A DNA stretch of 64,000 nucleotides from Gemmatimonadaceae bacterium (GTDB lineage: Bacteria > Gemmatimonadota > Gemmatimonadetes > Gemmatimonadales > Gemmatimonadaceae), in NCBI GenBank assembly GCA_011525845.1, contig WYBP01000008.1:186001-250000 (forward strand). Reading direction: 5' to 3'. Positions 14,660 to 38,161 of the stretch are shown here, piece after piece. The number at the start of each line of letters is the position of its first letter. Positions within the stretch are counted from its first letter, which is position 1. A program made the position numbers and the translations under genes. The notes beneath the pieces are model-generated. The model worked only from the letters and a program-made list of their open reading frames with translations. It made no database searches and was not told where the DNA came from.

Positions 14660-15853
14660 ATGGGAAACATCGTGCCCCGTCGACGCTCGCCCTCACCCCG
14701 GAGACCGGGACCGCGGGGCGCCCGCTGGTTGGCGCTCCTCCCCCTCGTCGCGGCCGCGTGCGGCAGCGGCCAGGGGGCGCCGAAGGTCGGCATGGCGTAC
14801 ACCACCGGCGGTGATGCGCTGCTCCGTTTCTTCCAGGCCGAGGTCGACCGCGCGCGCGCCGAGGGAGCTCCCGCAGTCCGGATCGTGGGCTTCGAGGAGG
14901 ACCCTGCGGGTGCGGACGACTCGCCGCTGGCGGCGGAGGTGCGGCGCGCGGAACGCTTCGTCGCGGATCCCGACGTGTTGGTCGCGATCGGACCCGGCGG
15001 GAGCCGGGAGGTGCTGCAGGTCGCGCCGATCTTCCGCGAGGCGGGCATGATGCAGATCGTCCCCACCGCGACATCGCGGGCGCTCCGGCAGGCGGGCGAT
15101 CACACCTTCCTCCTCTCCCCCGACGACTCGCTCCAGGGCGTCTTCCTGGGCGCGTTCGCCGACACGGCACTGGGCGCGCGGCGTGCCGCCATCTTCTACG
15201 TGCCCGACGAGTACGGCATCGGCCTCGCCTCCGGCACGGCCGCCGCGCTCGCCGCACGCGGCGTTCGGCTCCTCGGGCGTACTCCCGTCGGCGCAACCAA
15301 CGACTGCGGCACCCCGGCCGGGCGACTGCGCTTCCGGGACTTCGCGGAAGAACTCGCGCTCGGCGGGCGGCCGGATGTCATCGTGCTGGCGATGCGCACG
15401 GTGCAGTCGGGGTGCCTCGCGGCCGCGCTCGTGGCGCGGTTCCCCGACGTCGGCCTGCTCGCCGGGGACGGGACCTACCTCGGGGAGCCCTTCTTCGCTC
15501 GGGCGGGCGCCGCCGCGTCGTCCACGTACGTCGTCCACTTCTGGGACCCGGGCGGTCCCGATGAGCGCTCGCGCCGGTTCGCGGCGGCGTTCGAGGCGGC
15601 CGTCGGCCGCACGGTCCGCCATGGCGACGCGATGTTCCATGACGCGCTGATGCTCGCCGTGCAGGCCATCCGCGAGGCCGGGCCGGATCGCGCGGCCGTC
15701 CGGCGCTACCTCACCGAGGTCGGGCGGTCCCGCCCGGCGTTCGACGGGATCACCGGGCCGATCGGCCATGGAGCGCACCAGAAGCGCCGCATGCTCATGC
15801 TGCGCGCGTCGGAGCGCAGGGGTGCCGGCACCCGCGCGGAGGCGACGCGATGA
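14660..15853 (+). CDS. Periplasmic-binding-protein-like lipoprotein (Leu/Ile/Val-BP superfamily)
   Basis: 397 residues. A basic N-terminus and lipobox LVAAAC (Cys ~34) mark a lipoprotein. The rest has the type I periplasmic binding protein fold (Peripla_BP_6): DVLVAIGPGGSREVLQVAPIF, GARRAAIFYVPDEYGIGLAS and DVGLLAGDGTYL. No permease or ATPase gene lies nearby. Instead its last four bases overlap the start of a hybrid histidine kinase, so it more likely supplies ligand to that sensor than to a transporter. GATACT ends seven bases before the ATG at 14660; a GTG at 14654 is an alternative start. Confidence 0.82.
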   Translation: MGNIVPRRRSPSPRRPGPRGARWLALLPLVAAACGSGQGAPKVGMAYTTGGDALLRFFQAEVDRARAEGAPAVRIVGFEEDPAGADDSPLAAEVRRAERFVADPDVLVAIGPGGSREVLQVAPIFREAGMMQIVPTATSRALRQAGDHTFLLSPDDSLQGVFLGAFADTALGARRAAIFYVPDEYGIGLASGTAAALAARGVRLLGRTPVGATNDCGTPAGRLRFRDFAEELALGGRPDVIVLAMRTVQSGCLAAALVARFPDVGLLAGDGTYLGEPFFARAGAAASSTYVVHFWDPGGPDERSRRFAAAFEAAVGRTVRHGDAMFHDALMLAVQAIREAGPDRAAVRRYLTEVGRSRPAFDGITGPIGHGAHQKRRMLMLRASERRGAGTRAEATR

Positions 15854-31165: not shown

Positions 31166-34132
31166 ATGATCCCGCTGCGACCGCTCGCCCTCGTCGCCGG
31201 GACCTGGATCGTCGCCTCGTCGGCGGTCCAGGCTCCCGCGCGCATCCCCGTCACCGTGCGCGAGGGGACGTCGATGTCCGTCGCGGCGTCGCCGGATGGC
31301 CGGCAGCTCGCGATCGACCTGCAGGGGAGCATCTGGGTGCTGCCGGCGGGCGGCGGCGCGGCGCGGCGGATCACCGACGAGTACAATGACGCGCGGCAGC
31401 CCGCCTGGTCGGCGGACGGCCGCACCGTCGCCTTCCAGGGCTTCCGCGACGGGAGCTACGACATCTGGGCAGTGGAGGCCGACGGCACACGGCTGCGCCG
31501 GCTCACCACCGGCCCGGACGACGACCGCGAGCCGGCGTACTCCCGCGACGGCACGCGCGTTGCCTTCTCCTCGGATCGCGGCGACGGCACCAACTACGAC
31601 ATCTGGATGCTGGACCTGCGCTCGGGCGCGCTGGCGCAGCTGACGCGCGACGCCGGCGACGACTACATGCCGAGCTGGTCGAGCGACGGCACCGAGATCG
31701 CGTTCATCGGGATGCGCGACCGGGAGGCGCGCGTGCTCGCGGTGAATGTCGCGACGGGTGCGCAGCGCGTGCTGGCCACGCCGAGTGGCCGCGCGGATGC
31801 GCCGTCGTGGGGACCGACCGGGGAGCTCGTCTACCATGTGAGCGGGAGCGGGGTGAGCCAGCTCGAGCGCGCCGGCACGGCGCTCACGGGGCCGGAGAAC
31901 GCGTTCGCCTTCCGGGCGGGATGGCTGGCGCCGGGGGTGATCGTCTACACCGCGGACGGGAAGATCCGGCGGCGCGCGCTCTCCGGCGGTGCGTCCACGA
32001 CCATCGAGTTCACCGCGACGCTCGACGTCTCCCCCGCGCGGTACGTGAAGCGCGTGCGCGACGTGGACTCGCGCTCGCGGCGCCGTGCGCTCGGGATCGT
32101 CGCGCCCGCGATCTCGCCCGATGGCAAGTCGGTGGCCTTCGTGGCCCTCGGTGACCTGTATGTGATGCCGATCGGCGGAGCGCCGCAGAACCTCACGCGC
32201 GATGCCGCGATGGATGCGGAGCCCGCCTGGTCGCCGGACGGACGGTACCTCGCCTGGTCCTCCGACCGCGCGGGGAACCGGCTCGACCTCTGGGTGCGCG
32301 ACATGACGACGGGCGCGGTGCGGCAACTCACGCGCACCGCGAACTCGGCGATGGGTGCCGCCTGGTCGCCCGACGGGCAGCGCATCGCCTTCCTCGAGGT
32401 GGATGGCGTCTGGCGCCGGTCCAACCTCTCCGTGGTGGAGGTCGCGACCGGGCGCGTGCGCCAGGTGCACGAGTCCACCTTCGGGCCGGGTGCGCCCACC
32501 TGGTCCGCGGATGGCCGGCGGATCGCGATGGCGACCCTCGTCCCGTACTCGACGCGCTTCCGTGAAGGGACGAACCAGGTCCTCTCGGTCGCGGCGACGG
32601 GGGGTGATGTGCGCGTGCACACCCCGGTGCCGCAGCTCTCGATCGATTCGCGCGTGGGGGCCGGGCCAGCCTGGTCGCCCGACGGCACGCGGATGGCGGT
32701 CATCTATGAGGGCATGCTCTCGATCGTGACCGTCTCGCCGGACGGGACGCCGAATGGCCCACCCCGCCGCGTGACGAACGAGATGGCACATGCCCCCAGC
32801 TGGGCGGGGGACTCGCGCACGATCCTCTACCAGTCGATGGACAAGCTCCGCACGGTCGACCTCGAGACCGGCGCCGTACGGGACGTGCCGGTCGCGCTCG
32901 ACTACGCGCCCGCCATCCCGACGGGGCGCGTGGTGGTGCATGCGGGCCGCCTCGTCGACGGCCGCGCCACCACGGCGCGCACGGAGATGGACATCATCAT
33001 CGAGGGGAACCGGATCCGCGCGGTCGTCCCGCACGCGGCCGCGAACCACCAGAGCGGCACGCAGGTGGACGCGGGATCACAGACCGTGATGCCGGGGCTG
33101 ATCGAGTTCCACACGCACCTGCAGAAGGACCTCGGCGCCGCGTCCAACCGGGCCTACCTCGCGTTCGGGATCACCACCGTGCGCAGCCCGGGCGGGACGC
33201 CGTACGAGGCCGTGGAGGATCGCGAGGCGGTGGACGCCGGCGTGCGGCCGGGCCCGCGCCTGTTCACCACCGGCTACCTGCTCGAGTGGAACCGCACCTA
33301 CTACAAGATGGCGGTGGCGATCTCGAGTGCCGCGCACCTCGAGCTCGAACTCGAGCGCGCGAAGGCGCTCGAGCACGACCTGCTCAAGAGCTATGTCCGG
33401 ATGCCCGACCTCCAGCAGCGGCGGATCGTCGAGTTCGCGCACGCGGCCGGGATCCCGGCCGCCTCGCACGAGGTCTATCCGGCGGCGCTGATGGGCGTCG
33501 ACGGCACCGAGCACACCACCGGCACCAGCCGGCGCGGCTACTCCCCCAAGGCGGCGACGCTCGGCCGTGCCTACGGTGATGTCGCCGCGCTCTTCGCGGC
33601 GAGCGGGATGCCGCTCACGCCGACGCTCGCGCTCGGTGGGGGCGGGCTGCGCCAGCTGATGGCCGCGGACACGACGCTCGCGGGGGACGCGCGCTTCGCG
33701 CTCTATCCGCCCTGGCTCCGGGCGTCGCTCACGCCGGCGGGAGCGACGGCGCAGACGGCGGGCATTCCGCCGGCCACCGTCGCCGCCTTCGCGTCCGCGG
33801 CTGCGGCAGGCGGACAGATGGTGGTCGGCCTGATGCGCGCCGGCACCAGGATCGTGGCCGGCACCGACACCCCGAACGCCGCGACGCTGCATGGAGAGCT
33901 CTTCACCTACGTGCAGGCGGGGATGACGCCGGCGGAGGCGCTCCGCACGGCGACGGTGAACGCGGCGGAGCAGCTCGGGATCCCCGCCGGGGAGATCGCG
34001 CCGGGGAAGCTGGCGGACCTCGTCTTCGTCGATGGGGATCCGCTGGCGGACATCAGCGCGACCGTGCGCGTACGGGGGGTGATCGCCAACGGCCGCGTCT
34101 TCCGCATGGCCGACCTGGTGGGGCGGGAGTGA
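31166..34132 (+). CDS. Secreted PD40-propeller amidohydrolase
   Basis: 988 residues. After a hydrophobic N-terminus, residues ~35-580 form TolB-like PD40 propellers (SPDGRYLAWSSDRAG, SADGRTVAFQGFRDG). Residues ~590-988 are a metal-dependent amidohydrolase: GRLVDGRA start, the HTH metal site in GLIEFHTHLQKD, a likely carbamylated Lys in DLLKSYVRMP, SHEVYP, EHTTGTS, and the Asp in AGTDTPNA. The C-terminus (GKLADLVFVDGDPLADI) closes the composite domain. It probably hydrolyses dipeptides or similar amides outside the cytoplasm. It is in one transcription unit with the Vps10-like gene. Confidence 0.9.
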   Translation: MIPLRPLALVAGTWIVASSAVQAPARIPVTVREGTSMSVAASPDGRQLAIDLQGSIWVLPAGGGAARRITDEYNDARQPAWSADGRTVAFQGFRDGSYDIWAVEADGTRLRRLTTGPDDDREPAYSRDGTRVAFSSDRGDGTNYDIWMLDLRSGALAQLTRDAGDDYMPSWSSDGTEIAFIGMRDREARVLAVNVATGAQRVLATPSGRADAPSWGPTGELVYHVSGSGVSQLERAGTALTGPENAFAFRAGWLAPGVIVYTADGKIRRRALSGGASTTIEFTATLDVSPARYVKRVRDVDSRSRRRALGIVAPAISPDGKSVAFVALGDLYVMPIGGAPQNLTRDAAMDAEPAWSPDGRYLAWSSDRAGNRLDLWVRDMTTGAVRQLTRTANSAMGAAWSPDGQRIAFLEVDGVWRRSNLSVVEVATGRVRQVHESTFGPGAPTWSADGRRIAMATLVPYSTRFREGTNQVLSVAATGGDVRVHTPVPQLSIDSRVGAGPAWSPDGTRMAVIYEGMLSIVTVSPDGTPNGPPRRVTNEMAHAPSWAGDSRTILYQSMDKLRTVDLETGAVRDVPVALDYAPAIPTGRVVVHAGRLVDGRATTARTEMDIIIEGNRIRAVVPHAAANHQSGTQVDAGSQTVMPGLIEFHTHLQKDLGAASNRAYLAFGITTVRSPGGTPYEAVEDREAVDAGVRPGPRLFTTGYLLEWNRTYYKMAVAISSAAHLELELERAKALEHDLLKSYVRMPDLQQRRIVEFAHAAGIPAASHEVYPAALMGVDGTEHTTGTSRRGYSPKAATLGRAYGDVAALFAASGMPLTPTLALGGGGLRQLMAADTTLAGDARFALYPPWLRASLTPAGATAQTAGIPPATVAAFASAAAAGGQMVVGLMRAGTRIVAGTDTPNAATLHGELFTYVQAGMTPAEALRTATVNAAEQLGIPAGEIAPGKLADLVFVDGDPLADISATVRVRGVIANGRVFRMADLVGRE

Positions 34133-34158
34133 CGCGGTCCCGTTAATCTCCTAGCACG

Positions 34159-34791
34159 ATGACCGACCCCCGTACCGAGCTTCCCATCGGCGTTTCCGGC
34201 GCGCGCCGACTCAAGGTCGCCTTCGTGGGCACCCACGGGGTGGGGAAGACCACCCTCTGCTTCGACCTCGCGTCGCAACTCAAGCGGCTCGACCTCGGCG
34301 TCGAGCTCGTGAAGGAGGTGGCGCGGCGCTGTCCGCTGCCGATCAATGAAGGGACCACGCTCGACGCGCAGGCGTGGATCCTCCACACGCAGGTGGCGGA
34401 GGAGATCGCCGCGGCGGCCCACTATGAGGTGGTGATCTGCGACCGCTCCGTGCTGGACAACTATGCCTACCTCGTGGCGCGCGTCGGGAGGCGGTCGGAG
34501 CTCGACCCGCTGGTGGATGGCTGGATCCGCACCTATGACGCCCTGTTCAAGGTGCCGGTGCTGGGCGCACCCTCGTTCGACGGGAAGCGGGCGGTGAGCC
34601 CGACGTTCCAGATCGAGATCGACGAGATCATCGATGAGCTGGTCGCGGCGTTCGGGGTGACGGTCCACCCCCTCGACCCCGCGGACCGTGACGGGTGGAT
34701 CCGCTCCGTGGTGGGCACGCTCGGCCTGCCGGGGGCGCCCCCGCAGATCGACCTGTTCGGTGCGGACTCGGGCGCCGTTCGTACTTTGTAG
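34159..34791 (+). CDS. NadR-like P-loop kinase/ATPase (AAA_28)
   Basis: 210 residues. A P-loop FVGTHGVGKTT (~22-32) and a Walker B-like VVICDRSVLDNYAYL (~95-108) match the AAA_28 / NadR kinase-domain family, whose members phosphorylate nucleosides or small substrates. Without the NadR adenylyltransferase domain its substrate is unknown. Its stop codon lies inside the perfect palindrome at 34781-34801, so the operator of the next gene uses its last codons. Confidence 0.72.
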   Translation: MTDPRTELPIGVSGARRLKVAFVGTHGVGKTTLCFDLASQLKRLDLGVELVKEVARRCPLPINEGTTLDAQAWILHTQVAEEIAAAAHYEVVICDRSVLDNYAYLVARVGRRSELDPLVDGWIRTYDALFKVPVLGAPSFDGKRAVSPTFQIEIDEIIDELVAAFGVTVHPLDPADRDGWIRSVVGTLGLPGAPPQIDLFGADSGAVRTL

Positions 34792-34801
34792 CACAAAGTA
34801 C
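34781..34801. promoter_or_regulatory. Perfect 21-bp palindrome, probable operator
   Basis: GTACTTTGT (34781-34789) and ACAAAGTAC (34793-34801) are perfect reverse complements around AGC. It abuts the -35 box at 34802 and precedes a membrane protein/winged-helix regulator pair, so it is probably the binding site of that regulator. Part of it codes for the end of the NadR-like protein. Confidence 0.7.
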
Positions 34802-34836
34802 TTGACAGAATGCCCGCGCCACCCGATACTGGGGGC
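34802..34836 (+). promoter_or_regulatory. Strong sigma-70-type promoter leading to a leaderless GTG
   Basis: TTGACA (34802-34807) is a perfect -35. After 17 bp comes GATACT (34825-34830), four of six matches to TATAAT. The expected transcription start falls at the GTG at 34837, six bases further. An ATG at 34810 lies between -35 and -10 and so cannot be in this transcript. Confidence 0.7.
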
Positions 34837-35469
34837 GTGACCGCTCCCCTCCGCCAGCCGCCGGCCCTGCACGACCGGGCGCTCCAGGACCTCTCCTTCA
34901 TCCGCCGCACGATGGAGGGGGCCGCGTCCTTCACCGACGTGCCCGGGTGGGGACTCGTCGCCACCGGGGGCACCGCGGTCGGCGCGGCGTTCCTCGCGGC
35001 GGGGCAGGCGACCGCCGGGGGGTGGCTCGGGGTCTGGATGCTCGAGGCCCTCCTCGCCGCCACCATCGGCGGGGCGGCGATGTGGCGGAAGATGCGGCGC
35101 CGCGCGAGCGCCGGCCCCGGGCCGGTGTTCACCGTGCCGGCGCGCAAGTTCCTCCTCGGCTTCTGGCCCGCGATCCTCGCAGGCGCCGTGCTGACCTTCG
35201 CGCTCACGGACCTCACGGCGCTCGCCGGCCCCGCCTCCGCCGCGGCGGGGATCCTGCCCGGACTCTGGCTCCTCCTCTATGGCGTCGGGGTGCTGACCGC
35301 CGGCGCCTTCTCCGTCCGGACCGTGCCCCTCATGGGCATGGCGTTCATGGCCCTCGGGGCGCTCACGCTCCTCGTCGACGGCATCCCGGGCGACCTCGCG
35401 CTGGGAGTCGGGTTCGGCGGACTCGAGATCGCGTTCGGCGTCGTGATCGCGCGGAGGCACGGTGGCTAA
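34837..35469 (+). CDS. Four-helix membrane protein paired with a winged-helix regulator
   Basis: 210 residues from the GTG at 34837, selected because the promoter excludes the upstream ATG at 34810. A ~45-residue cytoplasmic N-terminus (ALHDRALQDLSFIRRTMEGA) precedes four to six membrane helices in two groups (~38-80 and ~108-205). No transport or enzyme motif is visible. Its end overlaps the start of the regulator gene by eight bases, which suggests that the pair works as a membrane sensor or modulator and its transcription factor. I do not know an assigned function for this family. Confidence 0.75.
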   Translation: MTAPLRQPPALHDRALQDLSFIRRTMEGAASFTDVPGWGLVATGGTAVGAAFLAAGQATAGGWLGVWMLEALLAATIGGAAMWRKMRRRASAGPGPVFTVPARKFLLGFWPAILAGAVLTFALTDLTALAGPASAAAGILPGLWLLLYGVGVLTAGAFSVRTVPLMGMAFMALGALTLLVDGIPGDLALGVGFGGLEIAFGVVIARRHGG

Positions 35470-35848
35470 GCGCGCCTCGGCGGCCGCGAAGGCGGCGAAC
35501 GCCTCACCGGGCGGGACCGGTCCGCTCAGCGCGGTGGACGGCGACGCGAGCGCCCCGCTCGACCTCGACCGCGTGATCCACGAGCGGGTGCGCCTGGCGA
35601 TCGTGAGCGCGCTCGCCGTGCACGACGTGCTCACCTTCAATGAGCTCAAGGCGCTGCTCGACGCGTCGGACGGGAATCTCTCCGTGCACGCGCGCAAGCT
35701 CGAGGACGCCGGGTACCTGGCGTGCAAGAAGGGATACGACGGGCGCGTGCCGCGCACGGAGTACCGGCTCACCGCCGCCGGGCGGAAGGCGCTCGAGCGG
35801 TATCTCGGTCACATGGAAGCGCTCATCCGGCGGGTGGGCGGCGAGTAG
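35462..35848 (+). CDS. Winged-helix transcriptional regulator
   Basis: 128 residues from a GTG at 35462 inside the previous gene. An Ala/Lys-rich N-terminal tail (~1-35) is followed by a winged helix of the MarR/ArsR-like type (HTH_34): RVRLAIVSALAVHDVLTFNE, the recognition helix DGNLSVHARKLEDAGYL and wing GRVPRTEYRLTAAGRKAL. The likely target is the palindrome at 34781-34801, giving autoregulation of the pair. No metal or ligand residues stand out; the membrane partner may control it. Confidence 0.85.
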   Translation: MAKRASAAAKAANASPGGTGPLSAVDGDASAPLDLDRVIHERVRLAIVSALAVHDVLTFNELKALLDASDGNLSVHARKLEDAGYLACKKGYDGRVPRTEYRLTAAGRKALERYLGHMEALIRRVGGE

Positions 35849-35860
35849 CGGGACGGCAGC

Positions 35861-35932
35861 GCAGGTCACGCAGGTCATGCAGGTCATGCAGGTCATGCAG
35901 GTCACGCAGGTCACGCAGGTCACGCAGGTCAC
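35861..35932. repeat. Eight tandem copies of a 9-bp unit
   Basis: GCAGGTCAC or GCAGGTCAT is repeated eight times without interruption (copies 2-4 end in T, the others in C), then decays into ACTCGTCAC. It fills most of the space between the regulator and uppS. There are no spacers, so it is a simple minisatellite. The GGTCA core could also serve as a clustered binding site. Confidence 0.9.
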
Positions 35933-35946
35933 ACTCGTCACACCAG

Positions 35947-35970
35947 GGCGCCGCGGAGGCGCCTTTCTCT
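35947..35970 (+). terminator. Probable intrinsic terminator before uppS
   Basis: GGCGCC (35947-35952) and GGCGCC (35958-35963) pair around GCGGA and are followed by TTTCTCT. It would end the membrane protein/regulator transcript 15 bp before the uppS start. Confidence 0.55.
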
Positions 35971-35984
35971 GGAGCTCTCACTTC

Positions 35985-36671
35985 ATGACACAAAGTGCTT
36001 CGGCTGTCCCCACGCACCTCGCGATGATCATGGACGGCAATGGCCGGTGGGCGGAGCAGCGCGGACGCCCCCGCTGGATGGGACACGTCGCGGGCGCGCA
36101 CACGGTGCGGCGCGTGGTGGAGTACGCCGCGCGCGCCGGTGTGGACCAGCTCACCCTCTACGCCTTCTCGAGCGACAACTGGAACCGGCCCGTGGTCGAG
36201 GTGTCCACCCTCCTCGAGCTCTTCGACACGCACCTGCGCACGCAGACGGCGAAGCTCGCCGCGCAGGGCATCCGGCTTCAGGTGATCGGCCGCCGCGACC
36301 GGCTGCCGCTCGCGCTCCGCGGCGCGATCAACGCCGCCGAGGCGCGCACCGCCGCCGGCCGCCGGATGACCCTTCGCGTGGCGATCGACTATTCGAGTCG
36401 CGCGGCGATCCTCGCCTCGCTCCCGGCGGCGTCCGCGGTGCGCGGCGGCTCCGCGGGCGAGACCCTGCTGCCCCCGGTGGACCTGCTGGTCCGCACCGGC
36501 GGCGAGCGCCGGCTCTCCGATTTCCTCCTCTGGGAGTGCGCGTACGCCGAACTCGCCTTCCTCGACGTGCTCTGGCCGGACCTGCGCGTCGGCGACCTCG
36601 ACGCCCTCTTCGCCGACTACGCCGCCCGTGAGCGGCGCTTCGGTGCCATCCCTCACCAGGCCTCCGCATGA
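35985..36671 (+). CDS. uppS: Short cis-prenyltransferase (UppS-like)
   Basis: 228 residues (E. coli UppS 253). The catalytic motif HLAMIMDGNGRWAE is at ~12-25, then TLYAFSSDNWNRP (~62) and RTGGERRLSDFLLWECAYAE (~170-190) with both pyrophosphate-binding Arg and the Glu. It condenses isopentenyl diphosphate onto a prenyl chain, normally giving undecaprenyl diphosphate for peptidoglycan. Unusual points: the usual NYGGR motif reads DYSSR, and the following helical segment is about 15 residues shorter than in E. coli. It may make a different chain length or be a second paralogue. It overlaps the next gene by ATGA. Confidence 0.82.
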   Translation: MTQSASAVPTHLAMIMDGNGRWAEQRGRPRWMGHVAGAHTVRRVVEYAARAGVDQLTLYAFSSDNWNRPVVEVSTLLELFDTHLRTQTAKLAAQGIRLQVIGRRDRLPLALRGAINAAEARTAAGRRMTLRVAIDYSSRAAILASLPAASAVRGGSAGETLLPPVDLLVRTGGERRLSDFLLWECAYAELAFLDVLWPDLRVGDLDALFADYAARERRFGAIPHQASA

Positions 36672-38161
36672 CCCCTGCACGCGCCCGCACGCTCATCGCT
36701 CTCGCCCTCGCCGTCGGCGTCGCCGGCGACGTCCTCCTCCGCGGGGACGGCGCTCGTCTCGGCGTCCTCCTGGTGGTCGTGCTGCTCGTGGTGGCCCTGG
36801 TCGCGTCCGGCGCACTGCCCGCGCCGGGGTCGGCAGGCGCACCGGAGGAGCGCGAGCGCTGGTGGATCGCCGGCGGCGCAGTGCTCGCGGCGAGCGGACT
36901 CATCCTCCGCGACGCAGAGGACCTGCAGGTGCTCGACAACCTCTCGGTGCTCGCGATGGGTGCGCTCTGGGCGTGGCACGCGCGGAGCCGCTCCATCGCG
37001 CGGTTCACGCTCGAGGACGCGCCCCGTGCCGGGATCCTCGCCGGCACGGACGTGGTCACCGGAGCGTCGTCGGTGCTCCGCCTCGGGCTCGCCGAACCCA
37101 TGGATGGTGACGCAGCCTCCGCGCGCTCGGGCCGGCGCCGAGACCTGGTCATCGGTGCGCTGATCGCGATCCCGCCGCTCGTGGTCGCCGCCGCGCTCCT
37201 CGGCGGGGCGGACCCGTTGATGGAACGCTGGTTCAGTCGGTGGACCGCCTTCATCTCGGAGGAGGCGATCGGCCACCTGTTCCTGGTGGCGATCCTCAGC
37301 TGGGCGGTCCTCGGGTGGAGCAGCGCGCCGCTGCGCCTCGATGGTCCGGTCGCGTCGGCCGCGCCGGAGCTCCGCTTCGCCTTCCCGTTCCGGCGGCTCG
37401 CGCCGACGCTCTATGGGCTCTCGGCGCTCTTCGCGGTCTTCCTCGGTTCCCAGCTGCGCGTCCTCTTCGGCGGCGCCGCGTACATCGCGGAGACCAGCGG
37501 GCTCACGCTCGCGGAGTACGCGCGCGACGGGTTCTTCGACCTCGTGGCCGTGACGGGCGTGGTGCTCGGCGTGCTCTACGTCGCGGACCGGCTGCTCGGC
37601 GAGGGGCGCGCCGAGGACGCGCGGCACTTCCGCGTGGCGGGATCACTCCTCCTGCTCCTCGTGACGGTGCCGATCATCTCCGCCTTCGTGCGCATGAGCC
37701 TCTATGTGCAGCACTTCGGCCTGAGCGTGGACCGGCTGAACGCGGTCGCCGCGATGATCGGCATCGCGGTCGCGCTCTCCTGGTTCGGCCTGACGACGCT
37801 GCGCGGCCGGCGGGCGCGCTTCGGGCCCGGGATGCTCGTCGTCACCTCGCTCTGGGTGGCCGCGCTCAACCTGGCGAACCCCGAGGCGATCGTGGTGCGC
37901 GTGAACACCGCGCGCGCGGCCTCGGGGAGCAGCTTCGACATCGCGTACCACCTGAGGCTGTCTGCCGACGCGCGTCCGGGACTCTGGGCCGCGCTCGCGG
38001 TGCTGCCGCCGGACGCGTGCCGCGAGTTGCGGACCGCGCTCGAGACCGAGTTGAGCACCGGGGCCCGCGCGCCGCGGGACTGGCAGAGCTGGAACATCCC
38101 GCGCAGCGCCTGGCGCCTCGGGTCGCTCTCGGGAGACTCCTGCGAGCGGAGCGCCGACTAG
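36668..38161 (+). CDS. DUF4173/DUF4153-type polytopic membrane protein
   Basis: 497 residues with about twelve hydrophobic segments. The family hallmark YARDGFFDLVAV lies at ~280, preceded by the SEEAIGHLFLVAILSWAVLGW block. The ~90 C-terminal residues are soluble, with two Cys. The function of DUF4173 is unknown. It is translationally coupled to the prenyltransferase gene (ATGA overlap), so an envelope or lipid-carrier role is a reasonable but untested guess. Confidence 0.8.
   Translation: MTPARARTLIALALAVGVAGDVLLRGDGARLGVLLVVVLLVVALVASGALPAPGSAGAPEERERWWIAGGAVLAASGLILRDAEDLQVLDNLSVLAMGALWAWHARSRSIARFTLEDAPRAGILAGTDVVTGASSVLRLGLAEPMDGDAASARSGRRRDLVIGALIAIPPLVVAAALLGGADPLMERWFSRWTAFISEEAIGHLFLVAILSWAVLGWSSAPLRLDGPVASAAPELRFAFPFRRLAPTLYGLSALFAVFLGSQLRVLFGGAAYIAETSGLTLAEYARDGFFDLVAVTGVVLGVLYVADRLLGEGRAEDARHFRVAGSLLLLLVTVPIISAFVRMSLYVQHFGLSVDRLNAVAAMIGIAVALSWFGLTTLRGRRARFGPGMLVVTSLWVAALNLANPEAIVVRVNTARAASGSSFDIAYHLRLSADARPGLWAALAVLPPDACRELRTALETELSTGARAPRDWQSWNIPRSAWRLGSLSGDSCERSAD

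Follow-up and report, generated by a model that had tools for sequence, protein, structure and literature searches.

A conserved operator before a membrane protein-HTH_34 regulator pair and uppS most likely marks a bacterial switch for cell-envelope upkeep

The window, a 64,000-nucleotide stretch of contig WYBP01000008.1 from a Gemmatimonadaceae bacterium, contains a series of forward-strand genes arranged around a short palindrome. The first of these, considered here as context only, encodes an AAA_28 (NadR-like) P-loop protein (34159-34791), and its TAG stop codon falls inside the palindrome, hereafter operator 1; part of the operator thus also encodes the end of this protein, as a preliminary description of the locus had noted. 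It is followed by genes for a membrane protein (MP; 34837-35469; 210 amino acids, with an N-terminal helix and six predicted transmembrane helices) and for a winged-helix regulator of the HTH_34 family (PF13601; 35462-35848; 128 amino acids). The regulator gene overlaps the 3' end of the MP gene, in agreement with the same description, its start at 35462 and the MP stop at 35469 delimiting an 8-nt overlap. Further downstream lie uppS2, encoding a second cis-prenyl (undecaprenyl) diphosphate synthase (35985-36671), whose start codon is located within a second operator, and a gene for a DUF4153 membrane protein (36668-38161), whose start overlaps the uppS2 stop and whose homologues at unlinked sites also have the operator. 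Past the regulator stop and before uppS2 come about nine 9-bp repeats (GCAGGTCAC/T; 35861-35941), followed by a GC hairpin and TTTCTCT (35945-35965, forward strand), a possible terminator or attenuator in this genome. The repeat array was not seen in the closest relative, L006, in which the regulator stop overlaps the uppS start.

Operator 1 (34781-34801, no strand assigned) reads GTACTTTGT-AGC-ACAAAGTAC, its two 9-bp arms matching perfectly and flanking an AGC that is not palindromic. It had been described as a 21-bp perfect palindrome; the arms are indeed perfect, but the symmetry is interrupted at the centre, and the core conserved across relatives comprises 17 bp (34783-34799; ACTTTRYRNYRYAAAGT), the outer left GT not being conserved and the outer right AC forming part of a conserved ACTTGACA. 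The -35 box TTGACA (34802-34807) adjoins the operator without a gap, the -10 box GATACT (34825-34830) follows after a 17-nt spacer, and the GTG at 34837, the predicted transcription start, begins 6 nt past the -10 box, all of which was correctly placed in the preliminary description. A promoter scan of 34000-36800 returned one promoter-like site with 10 of 12 matches, compared to 0.1 in shuffled sequences. An in-frame ATG at 34810 sits between the -35 and -10 boxes, so that an automatic gene caller may set the MP start too far upstream. The bare 9-3-9 palindrome alone is not significant, since the window contains one and shuffled windows a mean of 1.2, and significance therefore had to come from elsewhere. 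The specific sequence of operator 1 is expected 0 times at up to 3 mismatches, and with up to 2 mismatches the 17-bp core was found at only two loci in the 3.58-Mb genome, namely operator 1 and 35980-35996.

Relatives of the regulator were drawn from Gemmatimonadota, Acidobacteriota, Gammaproteobacteria, and Rhodothermia. With up to 3 mismatches, the operator was present upstream of the MP gene in 30 of 41 of their loci, whereas a reversed-pattern control gave 0/41; absence of the palindrome before orthologous pairs, which the preliminary description had singled out as counting against its reading, was thus looked for and not found. In about one-quarter of the relatives the operator is weak or absent. 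In the consensus, ACTTGACA comes directly after ACTTTRYRNYRYAAAGT, whose central base is uninformative; such invariant arms around an uninformative centre are, at the level of sequence comparison, the signature of a dimer-bound DNA site. The recognition helix of the regulator (DGNxSVHARxLE) is nearly invariant, matching the invariant operator core. The operator together with TTGACA was detected in 141 of 298 Gemmatimonadota genomes (reversed pattern, 1) and in 29 of 199 Acidobacteriota genomes (reversed pattern, 0). Scans of the DNA alone led back to the same genes: 28 of 30 fetched acidobacterial sites precede an MP-family gene, 26 also showing the regulator, and both genes were present at 23 of 30 fetched loci in Gemmatimonadota. 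The operator occurs in 135 of 186 genomes with the regulator and in 6 of 112 without it (p=6e-33, a Fisher value that is indicative only, as genomes of one phylum are related and independence is overstated). By these comparisons, the operator is a functional, widely conserved control site that travels with the MP-regulator unit, and the earlier suggestion of autoregulation by the linked regulator gains strong comparative support from its conservation before orthologous pairs.

The unit itself is tightly kept together. MP was found with the regulator in 177 of 179 genomes (p=7e-68, indicative only for related genomes), and the identical 8-nt overlap between the two genes recurs in 27 of 40 loci, including that of the gammaproteobacterium Saccharospirillum. 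Nine genomes gave a strong regulator match without an MP match; in at least one of them (G144, L228), the locus is cut by a contig end. In two close relatives (L006:1761-2370 and L190/L159), the operon gains a first gene encoding a small membrane protein, 'RKRLRAAAQNAVLWG', and the operator moves before that gene. Genome G112 carries an operator-bearing MP-regulator pair (L136, contig C26) and another operator on contig C62, possibly a duplicate of the module.

By tabulated count, 6 to 9 nt separate the -10 box from the start codon in 23 of the 25 loci whose -35 box is near consensus, which lends strong comparative support to the predicted leaderless MP start, as proposed in the preliminary description, as a conserved design. 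Leaderless-looking starts were seen for 5 of 43 predicted genes of the window, compared to 2 of 972 internal start codons, suggesting that leaderless genes may not be rare in this genome. Starts at 14660, 18586, and 27833 of the window also have a -10-like box 6 to 7 nt upstream.

Operator 2 (35980-36000, no strand assigned; ACTTCATGACACAAAGTGCTT) contains the uppS2 start codon at 35985 and is weaker than operator 1, being imperfect with 2 core mismatches. UppS2 clearly passes the family cut-offs (PF01255, 221 bits versus 27; TIGR00055, 225 versus 109.55) and is 45% identical to the canonical UppS of this genome, encoded on another contig (C17) in a pyrH-frr-uppS-cdsA cluster, whose neighbouring genes were named by eye from their translations. 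With up to 3 mismatches allowed, 18 of 53 loci have an operator that covers or adjoins the uppS start (control, 0). Over all loci, 45 uppS operators were found, 33 of which have the ATG at the same position (ACTTT-ATG-NNR-CAAAGT-ACTT). Part of operator 2 also codes for the first UppS residues (M-x-Q-S-T), yet the ACTTT upstream of the ATG is non-coding and conserved, which argues for a DNA site and not merely a coding constraint. In genomes G010 and G198 (the latter a single contig, only 93% complete), the operator-linked UppS was the only UppS found, suggesting that it can supply the essential carrier lipid; a C55 product is predicted. In 31 of 45 loci, a T run stops exactly 8 nt short of the uppS operator (T6-9 G[AC]GG N4 ACTTTATG; L062-L094 and others). 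A general intrinsic terminator before uppS was considered and rejected, because the 28 nt upstream show no general tendency to be structured (mean z -0.31 versus +0.12); a clear hairpin precedes the operator in some loci only, the window included.

Operators also occur at sites unlinked to the regulator. Clustering placed 25 of them before DUF4153 genes, Pfam confirming two examples. In Acidobacteriota they recurrently precede creD (the case at L211 was assigned by eye). Two genomes have the operator before an isopentenyl-diphosphate-isomerase-like NUDIX gene, which, reading its name from the sequence, we take to be idi. At L128, two genes recognized by eye, the first FPP-synthase-like and the second dxs-like, lie near the operator. 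Further unlinked operators precede genes for ABC-transporter ATPases and several small unnamed membrane proteins. Two small membrane-protein families, 'RRIRGAIGMGLTW' and 'RRxxYN...ANVCYSLG', repeatedly have the operator at unlinked sites (L130, L173, L176, and L177; L129, L164, L179, and L181). The gene for a membrane protein with the motif KxFCGFYLDCHL (CHLG-type) adjoins the regulator gene in Acidobacteriota and Rhodothermia and is found at unlinked operators in Gemmatimonadota, a distribution that provides independent evidence, from sequence, that unlinked sites are functional. The preliminary description had pictured a self-contained two-gene switch; the autoregulated pair stands, but operator 2, uppS, DUF4153, and the unlinked sites had been missed, and together they point to a small envelope and carrier-lipid regulon. 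A reading of DUF4153 as a Cache sensor was rejected, the relation having been withdrawn (PMC4822843).

HTH_34 is the top Pfam family of the regulator, which passes its cut-off over the full profile (95.3 bits versus 27) and stays below that of PadR (22.2 bits versus 27). Its structural model shows a minimal winged helix (helix-helix-recognition helix-wing-C-terminal helix); the N-terminus is disordered, and no ligand domain is evident. The closest solved structure is PH1061 of Pyrococcus horikoshii (PDB 1UB9; sequence E 2.3e-5; fold rmsd 1.6 over 94 columns), which differs in being an uncharacterised archaeal protein, and to our knowledge no operator is known for it. CsmR of Haloferax was rejected as a relative because its motif, TATCA-N4-TGATA, differs. 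MP matched no Pfam or NCBIfam family. Its AlphaFold model (40 relatives, pLDDT 90) comprises an N-terminal helix (11-30) and six further helices; judging from hydrophobicity and a positively charged loop, the latter probably span the membrane with the N-terminus in the cytoplasm. A known transporter or sensor fold was rejected for MP, since the comparison to solved structures gave no PDB match at E<=0.001 and no Pfam family was matched; further structure comparison yielded only middling scores, which may reflect common helix packing.

We consider it probable that the HTH_34 protein is an autoregulated repressor, probably tuned by MP, that controls carrier-lipid and envelope genes; binding, repression, sensing, and the signal are what we infer from these comparisons. 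With the operator in direct contact with a consensus -35 box, the regulator most likely represses by steric hindrance. A regulator dimer at 34783-34799, beside the -35 box and in part covering it, would keep RNA polymerase out and thereby repress the regulator's own leaderless operon. At operator 2, a dimer over the uppS2 start codon could serve as a roadblock or obstruct a promoter that escaped detection, which would also lower expression of uppS2 and of the DUF4153 gene. The 8-nt overlap would ensure that MP and regulator are made in a fixed ratio. As the one partner always tied to the regulator, MP is proposed to pass on a membrane or envelope signal, as suggested for HAAS-PadR dyads, and would most likely sense the state of the membrane or envelope and free or inactivate the regulator. 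The output, deduced from the recurrent targets, would be carrier-lipid supply and envelope maintenance through UppS, DUF4153, CreD, small membrane proteins, and isoprenoid enzymes. Carrier-lipid or envelope stress is a candidate signal that fits these targets, given that loss of CreD compromises the envelope in Stenotrophomonas (PMC4689548). For the putative 'membrane-coupled' switch of the preliminary description, gene linkage, co-occurrence, and overlap speak in favour; MP may be one more regulated envelope protein and not a sensor.

The latter possibility is central to the main rival explanation, in which an autorepressor of envelope genes would itself sense a small molecule such as an isoprenoid diphosphate, with MP as a co-transcribed target. 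The other targets, too, are membrane proteins and isoprenoid genes (idi, FPP-synthase-like/dxs-like, uppS), and a precedent exists in CrtR of Corynebacterium glutamicum, a MarR-type autorepressor that binds over its promoter, controls isoprenoid genes, and responds to isoprenoid diphosphates (PMC5401885). However, the regulator model offers no evident place for such a ligand, and by co-occurrence and fixed overlap no other target comes close to MP in its linkage to the regulator. CrtR moreover differs in belonging to the MarR family and controlling a carotenoid operon, and its abstract mentions no partner membrane protein (PMC5401885). We therefore regard direct sensing as unlikely, though it is the strongest competitor. 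Less probable still is activation, with the regulator recruiting RNA polymerase from a site next to the -35 box. In favour of this reading, some 46 nt separate the centre of the operator from the predicted transcription start downstream, near class II activator positions, and operator and TTGACA are locked together. On the other hand, the -35 box is consensus and the -10 box near consensus in many loci, and a near-consensus promoter touched by the operator fits repression better than activation; the position of the operator directly before the -10 box and without TTGACA at L029, and that of operator 2 over a start codon, likewise suit blocking better. A chance palindrome and promoter, or an RNA element without a regulatory role for the pair, was plausible from the window alone, where such palindromes are expected about once and the DNA can fold as a hairpin, but is rejected as extremely improbable in view of the cross-phylum conservation with variable centre and invariant arms, the 0 to 1 control hits, and the location of operator 1 upstream of the predicted transcription start, which means that it would not be transcribed from this promoter.

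The proposed repressor tuned by MP resembles several known systems without coinciding with any of them. HAAS-PadR-like wHTH dyads, proposed as an alternative to two-component systems for membrane stress, always have the gene for a stand-alone wHTH next to that for a multi-TM protein, which includes a helical segment in the cytoplasm (PMC11237479), and the linkage of MP with a stand-alone wHTH through overlapping genes in 177 of 179 genomes corresponds to this arrangement. In contrast to these dyads, the regulator here is an HTH_34 protein below the PadR cut-off, and a defined operator and predicted leaderless promoter are conserved across phyla. A Pfam search of 40 MP sequences gave no HAAS or DUF1700-type match at E up to 1, HAAS being defined by three helices with a GxP kink in the membrane partner. 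The Listeria PadR proteins LstR and LltR are small winged-helix repressors mainly of their own operons with transmembrane proteins and are thought to respond to envelope-acting compounds; they represent another regulator family with other membrane proteins, and the operons in the abstract of that study lack uppS (PMC6624303). CreD, an envelope-integrity inner membrane protein, is shared as a target with the CreBC system, in which control is exerted by the two-component system CreBC and not by an HTH_34 protein (PMC4689548). Our literature search, which is weak evidence as most subscription journals were outside its scope, returned no description of PF13601/HTH_34 regulators or of the operator, and none pairing PF13601/HTH_34 with uppS. 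We rate the pairing of a winged-helix repressor with a membrane protein as known, and the membrane family, the defined operator, and the carrier-lipid/envelope regulon as new.

Most likely, the operator is the mark of a bacterial switch, so far undescribed, for the upkeep of the cell envelope. More tentatively, and with some doubt, it is tempting to speculate that MP and HTH_34 represent an undescribed class of two-protein membrane signalling, widespread in Gemmatimonadota and Acidobacteriota and sporadic in other phyla, in which a six-TM protein would control a minimal repressor setting UppS carrier-lipid synthesis and an envelope regulon. Undecaprenyl carrier-lipid supply limits wall and surface-glycan synthesis, and its regulation is poorly known in bacteria. 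The operator, the regulator, a candidate membrane sensor, and a target set across phyla open this question to direct tests with two small proteins and a short DNA fragment, and provide a functional context for unnamed membrane-protein families such as MP, DUF4153, and the CHLG-type protein.
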